Shown in pieces: positions 51,301 through 59,288 of a DNA stretch of 64,000 nucleotides. The stretch's first letter is position 1. Each line of letters opens with the position of its first letter. The position numbers and the translations under genes were made by a program. The notes under the pieces were generated by a model. It did no database searches. It worked only from the letters and a program-made list of their open reading frames with translations, and was not told the DNA's origin. Origin of the DNA: Anaerolineae bacterium (GTDB lineage: Bacteria; Chloroflexota; Anaerolineae; Aggregatilineales; UBA3940); NCBI GenBank assembly GCA_016926255.1, contig JAFGOY010000070.1, positions 1 through 64,000 of the forward strand. The letters run 5' to 3'.

Positions 51301-52998
51301 CTACAATCCCTTTTCGTCCAGGAATTTCAATCGATTCGCCGAGCGCGACACTTTGCCGCTGCTGGTCTTGACCAGCCAGCCGCGCGGCACCAGTTCGACA
51401 TAGCGAACGGCCACGTCACTACCCGCCGCCACCTTTCGCCGGACATTCGCCTTGAGTAGCGACTTTTCCTCGTCGGGCATATCGAAATCGTCGATCTCGG
51501 CGATGACCGCCACGTCTTCGGTCCCGGCTCCTACATTCGGTGCACCGAAAGCTACCACCCGACCGGGGTGAATGCCATCGACTTTACTGACCAGCATCTC
51601 GATATCACGCGGGTAGACGTTCTTCCCACCGACGATGATCAGGTCTTTCTTACGTCCTAAGACGAACACTTCGCCGTCGGCCACATAGCCCATATCGCCA
51701 GTCAGGTACCAGCCCTCGTGGAAAGCTTCCTCGGTCGCATCCGGGCGTCGATGGTACTCAGTCAGCATGTAGGAGCAGTTCAACGCGATCTCGCCGATCC
51801 GACGTTCGGGCAGCGGATTGCGATCCGGGTCAAGCACCCTGACGTTCATCCCGCCAATCGGCTTCCCCGACGAAACCGCCGACTCGACGTTCTCGTAATC
51901 CGGTTCCACCGGCACCGCCTGTAAGTCTTCGCGCAGTGCCTTGCGATCCAGCCACTCGACCCGCGCCGGTTCGCCGATCTTGCTCTGGGTGACGCCGAAC
52001 ACGGTTTCCGCCATCGCGTAGCAGGTCGCCAGCTTCTCGATTCCTGCCCCGTAGGGTTCAAATCGTTCGGCAAACAGGCGGTGACTGTTGTCATAGATCG
52101 GCTCCGAGCAGTTGATGAAGGCGCGCATCGAACTCAGGTCAACGCCTTCCAGGTTTTCATCCCGGATTTTCTGAGCGCAGAAGTTGTAGGTAAAGTTCGG
52201 CAGCCAGGTCAGCGTTCCGCCCTGAGCGGTGATCGCCTGAAGCAGCATGTGAGGAGCGCGCACCCAGTCGAAGGGTGACATCAACACCAGCCGCGCGCCG
52301 GTCAGTAAAGGCATCAGGAACCCGGCGATCAGCCCCATGTCGTGGTAAAGCGGCAGCCAACTGACAATCACATCGTCGGTCGTGAAATCAAGTGACTTGC
52401 TGTACTGATCGAGCTGCTCGAAGATCGCCCGGTGTGCCAGCGCGACACCCTTTTGCAGCCCCGTCGTCCCCGACGAGTGCTGTAAGAGCGCCACCACGTC
52501 TGGATCGAAGGTTCCATCCAGGCGCGGCTCGTCGCTGTTGCCCAGCACCGATTCGGGGGTCAGTACCAGAATCTGTGGAAGGTGGATACCTTCGCCTTCT
52601 TCGGGCAGAATAGCACGGGCATCATCCTCGACCGCCGGATCGGTCGCCAGCACCGCCGGTTCCGACAGCTTGATCAGCGCCGACATCGCATTCCGGTAGC
52701 GATCCGGGTGCAGCTTTTCGCTGGCAAAGGGCATGATCGATGGGATCGCCCCCAGCAGTGCCGCCCCGAAAAAGCTCGCCGTCAGCAGCAGCGAATCCTG
52801 CTGCACGATGATCACCAGGTCGCCGGCACCAACACCCAGCGCGGCCAGTTGTTCTGCTGTGCGCTGCGCGGCCAGGTAGACTTCTTTGCGGCTCAGTACA
52901 ATTTCGTCTCTGTCGGAATAGATCAGGCGCAGGGCCTCGCGGGCGGATTCTGCGCCGGTCGCGAGTGTGAATAACTGTCCGGGTAGCGTCCGTGCCAT
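51301..52998 (-). CDS. Fatty-acyl-AMP ligase-like adenylating enzyme
   Basis: A 565-residue ANL-superfamily enzyme that activates a carboxylic acid as acyl-AMP. It has the P-loop LQHSSGTTGLQKGV near residue 178, VSWLPLYHDMGLIAGFLMPLLTG (FAAL-like), the A5-type CYAMAETVFGVTQ, the WYLTGDMGY Asp near 434, RKKDLIIVGGKNVYPRDIE and the catalytic Lys in TSSGKVSRS near the end. Proteins of this subtype load fatty acids on carrier proteins. The acyl carrier protein gene ends one base upstream of its ATG. It fills the DltA position in the acylation locus. Confidence 0.88.
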   Translation of the reverse strand: MARTLPGQLFTLATGAESAREALRLIYSDRDEIVLSRKEVYLAAQRTAEQLAALGVGAGDLVIIVQQDSLLLTASFFGAALLGAIPSIMPFASEKLHPDRYRNAMSALIKLSEPAVLATDPAVEDDARAILPEEGEGIHLPQILVLTPESVLGNSDEPRLDGTFDPDVVALLQHSSGTTGLQKGVALAHRAIFEQLDQYSKSLDFTTDDVIVSWLPLYHDMGLIAGFLMPLLTGARLVLMSPFDWVRAPHMLLQAITAQGGTLTWLPNFTYNFCAQKIRDENLEGVDLSSMRAFINCSEPIYDNSHRLFAERFEPYGAGIEKLATCYAMAETVFGVTQSKIGEPARVEWLDRKALREDLQAVPVEPDYENVESAVSSGKPIGGMNVRVLDPDRNPLPERRIGEIALNCSYMLTEYHRRPDATEEAFHEGWYLTGDMGYVADGEVFVLGRKKDLIIVGGKNVYPRDIEMLVSKVDGIHPGRVVAFGAPNVGAGTEDVAVIAEIDDFDMPDEEKSLLKANVRRKVAAGSDVAVRYVELVPRGWLVKTSSGKVSRSANRLKFLDEKGL

Positions 52999-52999
52999 T

Positions 53000-53245
53000 T
53001 TACTGATTCGCCTCGATGTGCTTGACCAGTTCTGCGACTGTGTCGAAGTTATCTGCCGTCAGTTCGTTGTCGTCGATTCTCACCCCGAAGGTCTCCTCGA
53101 CGAACAGCGCGATATCCACCAGACTGAACGAGTCGATCAGCCCGCTGGAGATCAACGGTTCGTCGTCGGCCATCGGGTAGCTTTCGTCGTGGAGAATTTC
53201 ACTTTTCAGGTAGTCTTTCAGTTTTGCGCCAATCTCGTCGCTCAT
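53000..53245 (-). CDS. Acyl carrier protein
   Basis: An 81-residue acidic carrier with the phosphopantetheine Ser in GLIDSFSLVDIALFVEETFGV (Ser39 context, DSF in place of the commoner DSL). It is separate from the fatty-acid synthase genes and precedes the adenylating enzyme with a one-base gap. It should carry the activated acyl group to the MBOAT, as DltC does in D-alanylation. Confidence 0.9.
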   Translation of the reverse strand: MSDEIGAKLKDYLKSEILHDESYPMADDEPLISSGLIDSFSLVDIALFVEETFGVRIDDNELTADNFDTVAELVKHIEANQ

Positions 53246-53293: not shown

Positions 53294-54379
53294 TCAATTC
53301 CCCGAAACGCCGCGCCACACTACATCCAGCGTTTGCAGCGCGGTCAGGTTGCGGACCGGCCAGCCGTATTGCATATTTCCCTCGTCGTAGAAGTGGCAGA
53401 ACGGCCCCTGGTAGGTCAGGTGGAAATCGTCATCGCGCAGGCCGTGCGCGGGCAGTGGATCGGTCGCCGCCCAGAAATTCCACAGCGGTACGTCGTATTC
53501 CTTCGCCACCTGAACGACCGCCGCATTGAGGCTGTAATCGCCTTCCAGGTTGTCGGCCTTCGTCGAGAGGATCGGCACCGCGCCGTGTTCGATACTGAAC
53601 TCGACGATCTGCCGCAGGTAGCCCGCATAGGTTTCCGCCGGACGTTCGTACCACCATGTCTCCATGCTGATGATCACGATGCTGGGATTGTTCACCCGGA
53701 ACTCGCATTCGAGCGGTGATTCACGCGCATCGCAGGGGGTGTGCTCGGTATCCGTCCACAGCGGCGACAGCGCCCCGGCGACGTTGAAGCCAGGATTCAC
53801 CGAGATGCGCTTGCGCGAGAACGAGTTCGTGATGTTGAAATTGTCAATCACGCCCTGGAGAGAGGTGTATTCGCCCAGGTTGTACTTGTTCGGGTCGCCA
53901 AAACCGCCCATGAAGAACTCGTAGCCGCCCTCGTTGCTATCCGCCGGGGCGTTGATGTTCTGGCAGTCGCCGATCACCGAGAACGAATTCGGGTCGGTAC
54001 CCATTGCCAGCCCACGCTGGTAAATGTCGATTGCCGTCTGGCTGACGCCGGTCGGCACAACCGGCTCTAATCGCCAGTCGCCCGTCCAGGGTGTGACGGT
54101 GATCGTTGGCTCAACTTCTGCCGGGGCCGCCTCGACCGATCCGCCCTCGGCGGGCTGTTCCGCTTCAGCGGGTGCTTCGGCCACTGCGTCAGCCGGGACC
54201 TGATCGACGGTTGTGGCGGTCGCCGGAACGGGGGTGGGTGGGACGGCGGTCGGCATGTTGGAGGTGTTGAGCGGCACCGCCACTCCCTGCGAACGCCCAC
54301 ACCCAGTGGACAGCACTATAACCACCAGCAGGCTGAGTGTCGTCATCACGTATCGAAATTGTTGTCCAGTTCGTCGCAT
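53294..54379 (-). CDS. SGNH-hydrolase-like lipoprotein, Cys-nucleophile variant (C)
   Basis: A 361-residue member of the same family as the pair at 20.9-23 kb, here inside the acylation locus. It has a lipobox at Cys27 (LSTGC), an Ala/Glu/Pro linker to residue 98, VIGDCQ (Cys139), SMETWW in the GxND place, a conserved Cys pair (216, 225) and DDFH (Asp317, His320). The ATG at 54379 is preceded by AAAGGA with good spacing. The gaps are 48 bp to acp and 23 bp to the membrane SGNH gene. It could hydrolyse, receive or present the transferred acyl group; this is unproven. Confidence 0.78.
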   Translation of the reverse strand: MRRTGQQFRYVMTTLSLLVVIVLSTGCGRSQGVAVPLNTSNMPTAVPPTPVPATATTVDQVPADAVAEAPAEAEQPAEGGSVEAAPAEVEPTITVTPWTGDWRLEPVVPTGVSQTAIDIYQRGLAMGTDPNSFSVIGDCQNINAPADSNEGGYEFFMGGFGDPNKYNLGEYTSLQGVIDNFNITNSFSRKRISVNPGFNVAGALSPLWTDTEHTPCDARESPLECEFRVNNPSIVIISMETWWYERPAETYAGYLRQIVEFSIEHGAVPILSTKADNLEGDYSLNAAVVQVAKEYDVPLWNFWAATDPLPAHGLRDDDFHLTYQGPFCHFYDEGNMQYGWPVRNLTALQTLDVVWRGVSGN

Positions 54380-54402
54380 TCTCATTCCTTTAAAAGCGGC
54401 AG

Positions 54403-55536
54403 TCATCGATCTTCAATCGATTTACCGATCTCTTCTGCCAGCAGATCCGATCCCGTTGGCGTGAGATGTATCGCGCTGTTGGTGAACTCGGTTCCGGGCA
54501 CCAGGTCCCACAAATCGAGATAGCACCATCCATTGGCCTCTGCCTGTTCTGCAAACAGAGCGCGGTAGTCGTCATACGCCCACCGCGGATAGAAGAAATT
54601 ATAACGAATGTCGCTGTTCTCACCCATGCTGATAAAAATCGGCTCGTTGACGAGGATCACCGGGACATCACCCGCCATCTCGACCCCCGCCCCGATCACG
54701 TCGAAGGCCAGGTCGTCGGCGGTCAGTGGTTCTTCGAATTCGTAGAAGGAGTAGTCTTCCTCGAAATCCTCCTGGCGCGGTTCGTAATCCGGGTAAATCT
54801 GGTCGATCCCGGTCGATGCCCACATTATGCCGTAAAGATTGAGGCGCAGCACGTCAGCAAGTGCCCGCCGCTCCCCGATGATTGTTCGATCCCAGGCTGT
54901 CCGATCCACGAACGACGGGTCGTCCGGATCGATGTTGAGATCGTATTCGGCGATCAACTCGCGCACCTGTTCCGGGTTGTTCTGCACCAGCGGCGAAAAT
55001 AGCTGCTTGCTGGATGGAGCCGCTTCGAGCGTTGTCAGCCAGATGATCAGGTCGGGATCGTAGTCCATCGCGTAGGAGAGCAGCAGCAAGTCCTTCGTCT
55101 GTGAGATGGTCGGGTGCCCCAGATTATAAAATCGCATCGACCGGCCATCCGGCGCGATGAGGTCCATCTGGTTGAGGTAGCTCGATAATGTGTCCTTTGG
55201 TTCGAGTAAATAGCCCCACACGCTCGAATCGCCCATCAGGAATACGCGATATTCATCGTCGGCTTTGGGCTGTGATGCCTCGTGTGAGGCAAACATCGCC
55301 TCGACGCTGTAGAGGCTCAGGTTGTAGGCTTTGTCGGGTGCTTCGCCGAAGGGCAGGCGCTCCCGCCCCGGCACGATTGAATTGTAGATCGATACCCGCG
55401 CCAGCATGGGCAGCGGATCGAGCAGTATGTAAAGTACATTGAGGATCACGAACAGCCCCAACGCCTTGAGGATCACCCGGATCACAAAGCCTTTGTCCGG
55501 TCGTTGAGTCGTTTCAGATGAAGGCGAATCGGCCAT
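54403..55536 (-). CDS. Membrane-anchored SGNH protein, DltD/AlgJ-like partner of MBOAT
   Basis: A 377-residue protein with one N-terminal membrane helix (about 18-40) and an extracytoplasmic SGNH domain. The nucleophile motif is FLMGDSS (Ser104) and the C-terminal catalytic His lies in NSAIHLTPTG (His357). The residue three before this His is Ser, not the usual Asp. Proteins of this layout encoded next to MBOAT genes complete acyl transfer outside the membrane. It starts 3 bp after the MBOAT stop and so is co-translated. Confidence 0.85.
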   Translation of the reverse strand: MADSPSSETTQRPDKGFVIRVILKALGLFVILNVLYILLDPLPMLARVSIYNSIVPGRERLPFGEAPDKAYNLSLYSVEAMFASHEASQPKADDEYRVFLMGDSSVWGYLLEPKDTLSSYLNQMDLIAPDGRSMRFYNLGHPTISQTKDLLLLSYAMDYDPDLIIWLTTLEAAPSSKQLFSPLVQNNPEQVRELIAEYDLNIDPDDPSFVDRTAWDRTIIGERRALADVLRLNLYGIMWASTGIDQIYPDYEPRQEDFEEDYSFYEFEEPLTADDLAFDVIGAGVEMAGDVPVILVNEPIFISMGENSDIRYNFFYPRWAYDDYRALFAEQAEANGWCYLDLWDLVPGTEFTNSAIHLTPTGSDLLAEEIGKSIEDR

Positions 55537-55539
55537 CGG

Positions 55540-56967
55540 TTACATCCCAAACAATTTCGCAAAGACCGCCCCCGCCATATCGACGGTCGGCAGCGCGAAC
55601 CATATCCAGCCCAGCAGCACGAAATGGAAGGTGAATACCACGCAGAGCACGTTGTACGCCTTTTTGAGCGCCGGGCGCTCGTCGAGTTTTCGCAGCCGGG
55701 CGCGCATTACGTTCAGCCAGCGGTTGTGTACGAATAGTCCCAGGCCGTGCCACGCGCCCCAGATCGCGTAGTTCCAGGTGACGCCGTGCCACAGGCCGAT
55801 CATGACCATGGTCGTGATCTGCCCGAACAGGATGATCGCCCAGACCGGCCACTTCTTAGCCGTCCGCATCCTGCGCGATACCGGGTTGAACCAGTAGGCG
55901 CGGAACCACTGGGCGAGGGTCATGTGCCACGAATTCCAGAAGGTGGTCAGGTTTGTTTTTAGGTAGGGCCGCTCGAAGTTCTCCGGCAACGTGATTCCCA
56001 TCAGCCGCCCGACTCCGATAGCTACATCTGTATACCCGGAGAAGTCGAGATACAGCCGGAAGGCGTAAGCGTAGAGCATCACCCACAGCCAACCGGTCGA
56101 TTCAACTTGCAGCGCGTTCTGGCCGCTCAGGGCCAGCAGCGCCAGCCCGTCGGCCAGCACGAATTTTTTCAAGATTCCGATCACGATCCGCTGCCCACCT
56201 TCATAAAGATCGGTCGGCGTGAAAGTGTATTCGGCCCGCAAATCCCTGACGAAGCGGTCGACCCGGTCGATAGGCCCTGCCGTAAATGCGGGGAAGAATA
56301 CCACGTAGATCACGAACTCTTGCAGCGAAACAGCGGGCAGCCGCCCGTTGATCCAGTCAAGCAGCACGTGCACCAGCCGGAACGCGACATACGAGAAGCC
56401 CAGCCAGCGAATATCGAACGCCGACGCCTGCTCCACCGACTGCCCCATCAGGCTGCGAATTCCCGCGCTGGCGAATTCGGTCAGCGGTTCGGTCTTGAGC
56501 ACGATCAGCAGCCCCAGCAGCCCGATGATCGTCCCAATCACCGCCCAGCGTTTACCGGTCAGCCCTCGTTCGACGCCGAACACCAGCCCGGCGATCAGCG
56601 TCAGCCCGATCCCGACGATCCAGATTTGCGGTGGTCGGGAAGGGGTCAGGCAGCACAGCGGCCCGGCGTAACGCAGCAGCCCCACGATCAACACCAGCCC
56701 AATCAGCACCGCTGCCGTGATCAGCGTTTCGCGCTGGTCGGGTTTTTCGTCCCCGCCAGCCCACGAAAGCGCCCATACTACCCCAACCAGCGCCAGCGTC
56801 GCTGTCGGCAGCCAGAAATCGAGATAGCGGATCGGCGTCACCGACTGCACCCAGTAGATGGCGAGAACACTCCCTGCCAGCATCAACCAGTTACGCCAGC
56901 GGCCCTTCGCCAGCACGCTGAATAGAATCGCCGCCGCGCTAAAGATCGATATATGAAAGAGTGTCAC
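55540..56967 (-). CDS. MBOAT-family O-acyltransferase (DltB/AlgI-like)
   Basis: A 475-residue polytopic membrane protein with about eleven hydrophobic segments. MBOAT signatures are FFPAFTAGPIDRVDRF near residue 225, YLDFSGYTDVAIGVGRLMG near 306, FWNSWHMTLAQWFRAY (His348) and the catalytic-His region GLWHGVTWNYAIWGAWHG (His394). It moves an acyl group from a cytoplasmic carrier to an acceptor on the outer face. The GTG start at 56967 abuts the stop codon of the microprotein gene. Its neighbours (ACP, acyl ligase, SGNH protein) match the Dlt scheme. Confidence 0.93.
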   Translation of the reverse strand: MTLFHISIFSAAAILFSVLAKGRWRNWLMLAGSVLAIYWVQSVTPIRYLDFWLPTATLALVGVVWALSWAGGDEKPDQRETLITAAVLIGLVLIVGLLRYAGPLCCLTPSRPPQIWIVGIGLTLIAGLVFGVERGLTGKRWAVIGTIIGLLGLLIVLKTEPLTEFASAGIRSLMGQSVEQASAFDIRWLGFSYVAFRLVHVLLDWINGRLPAVSLQEFVIYVVFFPAFTAGPIDRVDRFVRDLRAEYTFTPTDLYEGGQRIVIGILKKFVLADGLALLALSGQNALQVESTGWLWVMLYAYAFRLYLDFSGYTDVAIGVGRLMGITLPENFERPYLKTNLTTFWNSWHMTLAQWFRAYWFNPVSRRMRTAKKWPVWAIILFGQITTMVMIGLWHGVTWNYAIWGAWHGLGLFVHNRWLNVMRARLRKLDERPALKKAYNVLCVVFTFHFVLLGWIWFALPTVDMAGAVFAKLFGM

Positions 56968-57087
56968 TTAGAAACCCTGGTAAATCCACTGTGGAGACGT
57001 GGCCGCCGTCATCACGATCACCAGGATCACAATCAGGCACAGCCCGACGGCCAGCAGGTTCTCTCTGGAAAACAATTTCTTGAGCAT
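56968..57087 (-). CDS. 39-residue DltX-like membrane microprotein
   Basis: This small gene encodes 39 residues: a basic start (LKKLFSREN), one membrane helix (residues 11-29) and a short outer tail ending in WIYQGF. The ATG at 57087 lies 5 bp after the stop of the lipoprotein gene, and its TAA is immediately followed by the MBOAT GTG, so translation is tightly coupled on both sides. DltX proteins of teichoic-acid D-alanylation are similar in size and topology and end in a Tyr-containing aromatic motif thought to carry the acyl group. I infer the same role here from position and motif; no overall sequence identity can be claimed. An AGG at -8 is the ribosome site. Confidence 0.75.
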   Translation of the reverse strand: MLKKLFSRENLLAVGLCLIVILVIVMTAATSPQWIYQGF

Positions 57088-57092
57088 AAGGC

Positions 57093-57488
57093 CTAACGAT
57101 ACCCGCACATCAGCCAGTCGCCGCCCTCACGAACCGCCGAATACGTCCGTCCCTCAAGCTGGAGCGGGCGATCTTCGCCATCGTAGGTCAGCATCAGACT
57201 TCCTGTGCAGGTGACCAATGTCTCGTCGCCCTCGCTGCCCGAAGACTCGCAGGCCACACCCTCCAGCCGCGCCCCGACTGCCTCCAGCGAGTCGACCTCG
57301 ACTATCGCATCGGCTTCCCAGTCCGCGCAGGAGAGATTCACCACCCGGTTGGCGTCTTTATCGACCAGCGCCTGCAAATACGCTTCGACGGCCTGGGCTG
57401 GAGCATCCTGTCCACCGGAGCAGGCCGCCAATCCGAGAACAGCCAGCACGCTAATAATGATCAATACTAATGTAAAACGGCGCATCAT
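57093..57488 (-). CDS. Small lipoprotein, NTF2-like
   Basis: A 131-residue exported lipoprotein with lipobox LAACSGG (Cys near residue 23). The body (APAQAVEAYLQALVDKDANRVVNLSCADWEADA) resembles small NTF2-like or DUF4878-type lipoproteins. The ATG at 57488 has AGGTGA upstream; a GTG three codons earlier is weaker. It is first in the leftward acylation operon. It may be an accessory or acceptor protein. Confidence 0.7.
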   Translation of the reverse strand: MMRRFTLVLIIISVLAVLGLAACSGGQDAPAQAVEAYLQALVDKDANRVVNLSCADWEADAIVEVDSLEAVGARLEGVACESSGSEGDETLVTCTGSLMLTYDGEDRPLQLEGRTYSAVREGGDWLMCGYR

Positions 57489-57689
57489 GATTTTCACCTG
57501 TTCGTGTGAACTTTTCTTGCACGTGGTAAACTATTGCCTGTTTTTATCTGCCTGTTAGAGATTGGCAAACAGGCTTATAGAGTGTTTCGCGAAAAGTCGA
57601 CTATAAATTTCGTAAAACCTCAACTACACGGGGCAGTTATATACTAAGCTACCATCTTCTGCAACCGTGTTACAAGTATTGGTTACCTT

Positions 57690-59288
57690 ATGCAGCGTCG
57701 ATACTGGTTCACACTCTTTGCCATACTCGTGATTATCGCCGTCCTCATGATTTTGATTTCCAACGACGATGATCCGCAGATTGTCCTCCAGACCCCGGTT
57801 CTCATCGCCGAGGGCGCGGAGACAACCGGAGGATTATCCACCGCAACTTCAACGATTACCCAGACTCCATCGGAGGATATCGCCACACCGACTTCCACCG
57901 AAGAGGTCGAGGCGACCGCCTATCCCACTCCGACCATCACCCCAACTCCCGAACGGGCCGCCACGAGCGGCTATTACGTCGTGCAGGCCGGTGATACCCT
58001 CCTCGCGATTGCCTACGATCTTGGCGTCACCTTCGAGGAACTGCTAGAAGCCAACCCACAGCTCGACAGCCCGAACATGCTCCACCCCGACGATGTACTG
58101 CGCGTGCCACTTCCCGAAGGCAGCGAGGCCGCCCTGGAAATGACCGTCACGCCGCAGGCCGGTGCTGAAGTTACCGCCTACGTCTCCGCCGAAGGCGGAC
58201 GTCTGCTGCTCCGAGAAGAACCCGATCCGGGGGCTCCGGTGATCGCCCTACTCGGCGAGCAGGCACCTTTGCGTGTGCTTGGCCGCACCGAAGGCAGCGA
58301 GTGGCTCGAAGTCGAGGCGCTCCCCTCCGGGCTGATCGGCTGGGTAATCGGCGAATGGGTGATCGAAGATGTCTCCCTTGCCGAAGTTCCGATCACCGGC
58401 GAAACCATTGACGCCACCCGGACGCCAACCATCACCCCGACCCTGCCCACACCGCACCCGTTTGCCACCGCTACCCGCACCTTTACCGGTGAGGTGCTTG
58501 CCGACTATCCCTATCTGAGTAATCTCACCAGCCGTTCACAGGAGATATTCCTGCGTGGCCGTTTGATGGGCAATCGAAAGAACGTTTTCTCCAAAATCGG
58601 CGACAGCATCACTGCCAACACCGCCTACCTCTATCCCATCGGCGTGAACGACTACGATCTGCGTGACTACGAAGAGCTTCAGCCGGTCGTCGATTACTAT
58701 AGAGTGCAGCTGGCCCGCGATCACAACTCGTTCGCCAATACGTCACTGGCCGCCAAGGGCGGCTGGCTGGTCTGGCACGTCCTGATCCCCCGCTACGCCG
58801 ATCCCGAAATCTGCTATGACTACGAATCCCCCCTCGAATGCGAATACCGGGTGGTCAAGCCCTCCGTCGCCCTGATCATGCTGGGTACCAACGACATCCT
58901 CTCAACGCAGGATGGTGTCTACGAGGAAGGGATGCGGCAAGTGATCGAAATCTCGATTGACATGGGTGTCATCCCGGTCGTCAGCACCATTCCGCCTTTC
59001 TATTATGGCGATGTCGAACCAGGCCGCGTCGAACTGTTCAACAACATCATCGTCTCGCTCTGCGAAGAATACGAAGTCCCGATCTGGGATTACTGGGCAG
59101 CCCTGCAGCCGCTTCCCAACGAGGGCCTTTCCACCGATGGCGTTCACCCTTCCTGGAACGACCCGGCGGATTTCACCCCGTCGAATCTCGAATACGGGAT
59201 GGCCGTCCGCAACCTGACCGCGCTACAGGCCCTCGACGCCATCTGGCGCTACGTCATTCTGCCCGAAACCGGCGAAACGGTTCCCTGA
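57690..59288 (+). CDS. LysM-SH3-SGNH surface protein (Ser-type family member)
   Basis: A 532-residue protein: N-terminal membrane anchor (7-23), Thr/Pro-rich linker, LysM domain (YYVVQAGDTLLAIAYDLGVTFEELLEANPQL, 95-140), SH3-like domain (about 155-225), a second linker and a full SGNH domain with GDSI (Ser306), GTND (near 399) and DGVH (Asp483, His486). It shares the conserved Cys pair and the C-terminal VRNLTALQALDAIWR block with the three Cys-variant lipoproteins, so it is their canonical relative. LysM points to peptidoglycan binding. It is divergent from the acylation operon, with about 200 bp between them. Confidence 0.85.
   Translation: MQRRYWFTLFAILVIIAVLMILISNDDDPQIVLQTPVLIAEGAETTGGLSTATSTITQTPSEDIATPTSTEEVEATAYPTPTITPTPERAATSGYYVVQAGDTLLAIAYDLGVTFEELLEANPQLDSPNMLHPDDVLRVPLPEGSEAALEMTVTPQAGAEVTAYVSAEGGRLLLREEPDPGAPVIALLGEQAPLRVLGRTEGSEWLEVEALPSGLIGWVIGEWVIEDVSLAEVPITGETIDATRTPTITPTLPTPHPFATATRTFTGEVLADYPYLSNLTSRSQEIFLRGRLMGNRKNVFSKIGDSITANTAYLYPIGVNDYDLRDYEELQPVVDYYRVQLARDHNSFANTSLAAKGGWLVWHVLIPRYADPEICYDYESPLECEYRVVKPSVALIMLGTNDILSTQDGVYEEGMRQVIEISIDMGVIPVVSTIPPFYYGDVEPGRVELFNNIIVSLCEEYEVPIWDYWAALQPLPNEGLSTDGVHPSWNDPADFTPSNLEYGMAVRNLTALQALDAIWRYVILPETGETVP

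Follow-up and report, generated by a model that had tools for sequence, protein, structure and literature searches.

The locus and its gene cluster

The window, that is, the whole 64,000-nucleotide stretch of DNA analyzed here, contains a gene cluster on its minus strand in which a very small open reading frame lies between a lipoprotein-like gene and a gene for an MBOAT protein (Table 1). The frame runs from 57087 to 56968, with an ATG at 57087-57085 and a TAA at 56970-56968, and its 39 codons specify the microprotein MLKKLFSRENLLAVGLCLIVILVIVMTAATSPQWIYQGF, which ends in WIYQGF. The plus-strand reading of 56968-57087 encodes something different; the strand was left unstated in the preliminary description of the locus, which gave the length of the gene, its last six residues and its fit between its neighbors correctly. 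That fit is close: 5 bp separate the stop of the lipoprotein-like gene (57093) from the microprotein ATG, and 0 bp separate the microprotein TAA from the GTG start of the MBOAT gene at 56967, which is in the same frame. Use of an alternative upstream GTG start at 57108 would give a microprotein of 46 aa. From the charges of its basic N-terminus (MLKK..R), the microprotein is predicted to be oriented N-in/C-out.

The usual order of the cluster is lipoprotein, microprotein, MBOAT, two SGNH-type proteins (SGNHa and SGNHb), carrier protein and ligase. The lipoprotein-like gene at 57093-57497 (minus strand) neighbors the microprotein in many genomes, and its product has a weak match, below cut-off, to an Rv0361-type membrane protein. 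Divergently transcribed from the cluster is a gene for one secreted protein with LysM, SH3 and GDSL/SGNH domains (57690-59288, plus strand), relatives of which recur beside the cluster in other genomes. In a dozen loci, such as L044, L144, L148, L159 and the window, no base separates the microprotein stop from the MBOAT start and the two genes share a frame; all three stop codons are used at these in-frame junctions, where the two genes are probably translationally coupled.

Table 1. Features of the microprotein cluster in the window, with the evidence for each.
Feature	Coordinates	Strand	Evidence
Membrane microprotein, 39 aa, proposed trans acyl shuttle	56968..57087	-	ATG-TAA frame; family in 95/396 class genomes
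Single transmembrane helix, ~residues 12-28 (predicted)	57004..57054	-	Sequence; helix = model residues 7-26 in L048 homologue
C-terminal hexapeptide W34-I-Y36-Q-G-F39; proposed acyl-carrying Tyr36 (codon 56980-56982)	56971..56988	-	Tyr and final Phe in 91/91 stop-terminated copies
DltB-type MBOAT, 475 aa, GTG start, without C-terminal extension	55540..56967	-	PF03062, 52 bits; TIGR04091 (DltB), 218 bits (cut-off 375)
MBOAT invariant His348 and His394	55924-55926; 55786-55788	-	Invariant alignment columns
SGNHa, membrane-anchored SGNH enzyme, proposed acyl acceptor from microprotein	54403..55536	-	Conserved Ser/His; SGNH fold
SGNHa residues Ser104, Asn138 and His357	Ser104, 55225-55227; His357, 54466-54468	-	Ortholog alignment for Ser, His
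SGNHb, second GDSL/SGNH-like protein, lipoprotein-like N-terminus, block I GDC in place of GDS	53294..54406	-	PF13472, 25 bits, below cut-off
Acyl carrier protein, phosphopantetheine Ser39 (53129-53131)	53000..53245	-	PF00550, 29 bits, over cut-off; DSF motif invariant
Fatty-acyl-AMP-ligase-like adenylating enzyme, proposed carrier-protein loader	51301..52998	-	PF00501, 165 bits; NCBIfam; nearest solved structures
Small lipoprotein-like gene directly upstream of microprotein, often retained in cluster	57093..57497	-	

Conservation of the microprotein

A frame of only 39 codons without a family match could be a chance opening between two genes. The microprotein finds no family at cut-off in Pfam, NCBIfam or PHROGs, a PDB sequence search with it gave no meaningful match, and its ortholog in Leptolinea sp. 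HRD-7 (BCY19582.1) is annotated only as a hypothetical protein. However, the frame is conserved over 42 sampled genera with synonymous substitution, and the same protein sequence is found at other genome positions. A profile search detected the microprotein in 95 of 396 genomes of the class Anaerolineae (Chloroflexota), spread over 42 of 223 genera, and the 26 matches in 301 genomes sampled from across the phylum all fell within that class. A scan of a genome collection gave 183 confirmed stretches, of which 80 were retained, with record titles that are nearly all Chloroflexota or Anaerolineae. Two matches under Bacteroidetes (L253) and Pleurocapsa minor (L264) record titles were not read as transfer.

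The microprotein lies just upstream of the orthologous MBOAT in 20 of 30 relatives' loci, where it ends in WIYQGF and once in WIYQNF. Its absence from the other ten loci was considered and rejected, given that all ten genomes encode it elsewhere. Away from the MBOAT, the microprotein can be found directly behind the ligase gene (L105-L109, L112) or, in L043, about 7 kb upstream of the MBOAT and behind an SGNH gene, and some further copies stand without cluster genes beside them.

Collection of 92 copies yielded 91 that reach a stop, while the 92nd runs off its contig. An alignment of the last six residues upstream of relatives' MBOATs, as proposed in the preliminary description, found the frame kept and the motif Tyr, the final Phe and a Pro two residues before the hexapeptide invariant in all 91. 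The hexapeptide is WIYQGF in 81 copies, FIYQGF in 4, WIYQNF in 2, and WIYQAF, WVYGGF, WMYQGF and FVYGGF in 1 each, such that its first position is Trp in 86 and Phe in 5. The codons for the invariant residues vary, with 56 TAT and 35 TAC for Tyr, 53 TTC and 38 TTT for Phe, and four different codons for Pro. Purifying selection, the absence of which would have counted against the gene in that description, is evident from free synonymous change and a dN/dS of about 0 to 0.2 in the closest pairs; pairs with saturated or odd dS gave higher values and were left out of the selection argument. The most conserved part of the microprotein is the extreme C-terminal hexapeptide, which is conserved above the helix. 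Given this codon-level conservation, with invariant Tyr, Phe and Pro and synonymous change around them, the chance-frame reading is refuted with near certainty, and the microprotein frame is a real gene, far beyond chance.

Co-occurrence and complementarity with the MBOAT

An ortholog of the MBOAT (E up to 1e-50) is found in 94 of the 396 class genomes, and all 94 also encode the microprotein, with none that has the MBOAT alone (Fisher p ~1e-91, from counts uncorrected for shared ancestry). The sole genome with a microprotein match but without the MBOAT is G080, where the match has an internal stop. An ortholog of the ligase (E up to 1e-120) is found in 92 genomes, 83 of which are among the microprotein's 95; the mismatch is in part a threshold effect, as the clusters of L140, L150 and L152 do contain the ligase.

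The two proteins are also complementary in sequence. None of 80 orthologous MBOATs carries a C-terminal F-x-Y-x-x-F hexapeptide. As a control, 22 other MBOATs were taken from the window genome and from relatives of the same order; 21 of them end in this motif and the last one in FVYQGI. Three more MBOATs of this cis type, in the collected loci, end in FIYFQF, FIYFQF and FIYVQF. The control cis MBOATs that were measured have about 140-162 residues after the His of the WHG motif, compared to 81 in the window MBOAT. Since the orthologous MBOATs lack the hexapeptide and the cis MBOATs have it, the microprotein supplies the missing part in trans. Diverged sister MBOATs (L288, L291, L292, L295) adjoin diverged microproteins that end in FIYAGF, FIYQGF, FIYTGF and LIYRGF, two of them with carrier and ligase.

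Second-copy MBOATs of the detached type (L281-L287, L289, L290, L293, L294) have no adjoining microprotein, and some of these genomes have one microprotein, so that a single shuttle may serve two MBOATs.

Alternatively, the microprotein could serve the MBOAT in a structural or assembly role, as other one-helix stabilizing subunits do, with a Tyr that is not acylated. Its one helix, strict co-occurrence and adjacency would suit such a role. The co-folding proposed in the preliminary description was approached with an AF2 model of a natural stop read-through fusion in locus L048, which has a 32-residue linker, ties down the C-terminus and was modelled from 37 alignment rows. In this model the MBOAT folds well and the microprotein helix has a pLDDT of about 80, but the hexapeptide has a pLDDT below 50 and is placed without confidence; the model thus gives fair confidence to the helix only, as a structural subunit would have it, and does not put the motif in the active site, which speaks neither for nor against docking. 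Conservation, in contrast, peaks at the C-terminal hexapeptide and not at the helix, and the hexapeptide is what the partner MBOATs lack and their cis relatives carry, and it has been shown to be acetylated at the C-terminus of PatA (PMC12148441). A purely structural role is considered unlikely.

Partner proteins

The window MBOAT is nearest to DltB in sequence and in fold, with a fold Z of 28.8 over 387 residues compared to 22.3 for the next family. An MBOAT with conserved catalytic His, as in MBOAT/SGNH systems, is indicated by a PF03062 match over cut-off and by invariant His columns, and the SGNH partner with catalytic Ser and His is SGNHa, in which the Ser is found in 55 of 55 orthologs and the His in 54, with one gap. 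A PDB sequence search with SGNHa returned nothing, and its AF2 model (pLDDT 91) has a fold that matches SGNH esterases and, at lower scores, DltD (6pfx) and an LPS acetyltransferase domain. The SGNHb family shows a natural split within one SGNH-like enzyme family: the block I nucleophile is Ser (GDS) in 54 and Cys (GDC) in 31 of 85 sequences, and the window copy has Cys.

The best NCBIfam models for the ligase are acyl and fatty-acyl ligases, and most of the solved structures nearest to it are fatty-acyl-AMP ligases. The best 25 of its 106 NCBIfam matches include no DltA model, whereas two real DltA proteins, run as a control, score 700-716 bits. Because the ligase is near acyl- and fatty-acyl-AMP ligases and unlike real DltA, the cargo of the cluster is likely to be something other than D-alanine, as judged from sequence. 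The carrier protein scores below the cut-offs of the DltC models TIGR01688 (21.4 against 52.35) and NF003464 (29.8 against 68). Of 16 genomes that encode the system, only 4 have matches to the glycerol-phosphate polymerase family PF04464, and these are weak. The window's own contig carries, beyond the window, a weak but over cut-off PF04464 (CDP-glycerol glycerophosphotransferase) match at G000:C20:77794-78411.

Comparison with the Dlt and Pat systems

The preliminary description called the microprotein DltX-like, which holds for its architecture but not for its family. As with DltX, this is a small one-helix membrane protein that ends in an aromatic, Tyr-centered hexapeptide. The motif is of the FXYXXF type with invariant Tyr, and FXYXXF is the published motif for both DltX and PatA (PMC12148441), in agreement with the motif given in the preliminary description. 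A single transmembrane helix, seen in the fusion model, lies in a protein of 33-47 aa (trimmed family length), comparable to the roughly 50 residues of DltX. The tails read WIYQGF in the microprotein and FIYNEF in DltX. Six real DltX sequences were used for comparison, and all six match PF12459 (cut-off 25 bits). The window microprotein does not match this model, a search of the genome with it gave nothing at the locus, and 1 of 43 microprotein family members has a weak match (E 0.033). The hhalign comparison of the microprotein with the six DltX sequences covers only the last 15 columns, with a probability of 12.6, which falls to 0.5 when the hexapeptide is removed, so no similarity to these sequences extends beyond the motif. 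The microprotein would therefore be DltX-like in action, but it lies outside the DltX family by the tests used, with a tail nearer to those of cis-type MBOATs.

The comparison extends to the whole cluster. DltX, too, has as partners an MBOAT without the motif, an SGNH protein, a carrier protein and an AMP ligase, and DltB likewise has an MBOAT fold, two conserved His and no C-terminal extension, and falls on the same side of the MBOAT tree. However, the window MBOAT reaches 218.2 bits on the DltB equivalog model, below the cut-off of 375, and has a longer N-terminal region than DltB; the Dlt ligase is DltA, whereas the cluster ligase is not DltA-like; and the gene order is unlike Dlt, with the microprotein before the MBOAT or after the ligase. 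In the genomes searched, the microprotein is confined to the class Anaerolineae, whereas the literature gives DltX as conserved among Firmicutes (PMC5541007). In short, the layout of the cluster is like that of Dlt, but none of its components passes the Dlt family tests that were applied.

These observations bear on whether Anaerolineae have a D-alanylation system in which the microprotein is a true ortholog of DltX. The parts list (X, B, SGNH, carrier and ligase) is that of Dlt, one family member does have a weak DltX match, and the MBOAT tree, for which no root was inferred, separates the partner MBOATs together with DltB from all sampled cis MBOATs on a branch with 100/98 support. Yet the microprotein has no DltX match above cut-off, the MBOAT and carrier fall below the DltB and DltC cut-offs, the ligase resembles fatty-acyl-AMP ligases, and the polymerase family PF04464 is weak and confined to a quarter of the 16 genomes sampled, which makes orthology to DltX improbable.

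A second proposal concerns origin rather than function: the microprotein may be the split-off last helix of a cis-type MBOAT, generated by gene fission within Chloroflexota and separate in origin from DltX. PatA/PatB and other MBOAT/SGNH pairs share an F-x-Y-x-x-F-type shuttle motif for MBOAT and SGNH enzyme, and cis tails in these genomes, such as APFVYQGF, are closely like the microprotein tail. The microprotein profile matches the C-terminal tails of 24 cis MBOATs of the same order with a probability of 97, an E of 8e-11 and a score of 42.6, whereas 60 column shuffles with the hexapeptide left intact reach at most 33.1; removal of the hexapeptide still leaves a weak match (probability 67), and this contrasts with the slight DltX match, which holds nothing past the motif. 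On the other hand, the match is short, at 20 columns, helix residue bias can inflate such scores, DltX also resembles cis tails (probability 72), and in the MBOAT tree the partner falls with DltB and not inside the cis group. Fission is thus offered tentatively, as somewhat less than an even chance; one ancient detached design or an independent fission could each account for these results.

Proposed mechanism and significance

In the Dlt system, DltB transfers the D-Ala carried by DltC onto the DltX Tyr, from which it passes to DltD, whereas PatAB has the Tyr within PatA and draws on acetyl-CoA as donor (PMC12148441). The parts of the cluster fit the Dlt scheme with a different ligase, and by this analogy the microprotein is very probably a trans-acting acyl shuttle for a carrier-fed MBOAT/SGNH machine with a cargo other than D-alanine; the chemical steps, topology, cargo and acceptor are those we infer. 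The substrate of the AMP ligase would be a carboxylic acid, and probably not D-alanine but a fatty or other acyl acid, which the enzyme would activate and load onto the carrier protein. The DltB-type MBOAT would then move the acyl group across the membrane onto Tyr36 of the microprotein, the single helix of which would lie next to the MBOAT and hold the WIYQGF tail on the outer side. From the acyl-tyrosine tail, the membrane-anchored SGNHa would take up the group on its active-site Ser and could hand it to an envelope polymer.

A separate small-protein Tyr shuttle has so far been known only from the teichoic-acid (Dlt) system of Firmicutes, and according to a 2025 account, MBOAT/SGNH pathways outside Dlt have neither a carrier protein nor a DltX-like microprotein (PMC12148441). 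The pathway described here is widespread in Anaerolineae and has both, yet fails the Dlt family tests. No paper that links DltX with Chloroflexi, or an MBOAT with carrier and SGNH, was found in a literature search with coverage mostly outside subscription journals and preprints. Therefore, the chemistry is known, but a detached shuttle outside Dlt is undescribed in the searchable literature. The claim in the preliminary description that the locus extends the Tyr shuttle beyond teichoic acids needs adjustment accordingly: that extension had already been made in cis, on the C-terminus of PatA, and what is new is the detached microprotein in a carrier-fed system that is not Dlt by family.

PatA is an MBOAT that contains the motif and takes acetyl-CoA as donor, whereas in the cluster the motif is on a protein of its own and a carrier and ligase are co-encoded, which suggests that the choice of carrier or CoA as donor goes with a detached or fused shuttle. 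A general rule might follow, put forward speculatively and with rather more doubt than conviction, by which carrier-fed MBOATs use a detached Tyr shuttle and CoA-fed MBOATs a fused one; the Anaerolineae microproteins would then be a second, independently recruited detached family, related to cis-MBOAT tails, with a cargo other than D-alanine and a polymer other than teichoic acid. The work also puts a name to a gene that was missing for many genomes of little-studied bacteria, and single genomes with both detached and fused shuttles allow a natural comparison of the two. The window genome (G000) also encodes two fused-type MBOATs (contigs C74 and C39; L001 and L002), which end in FVYQGF and FVYQGI, the latter with Ile at the position of the usual final Phe.
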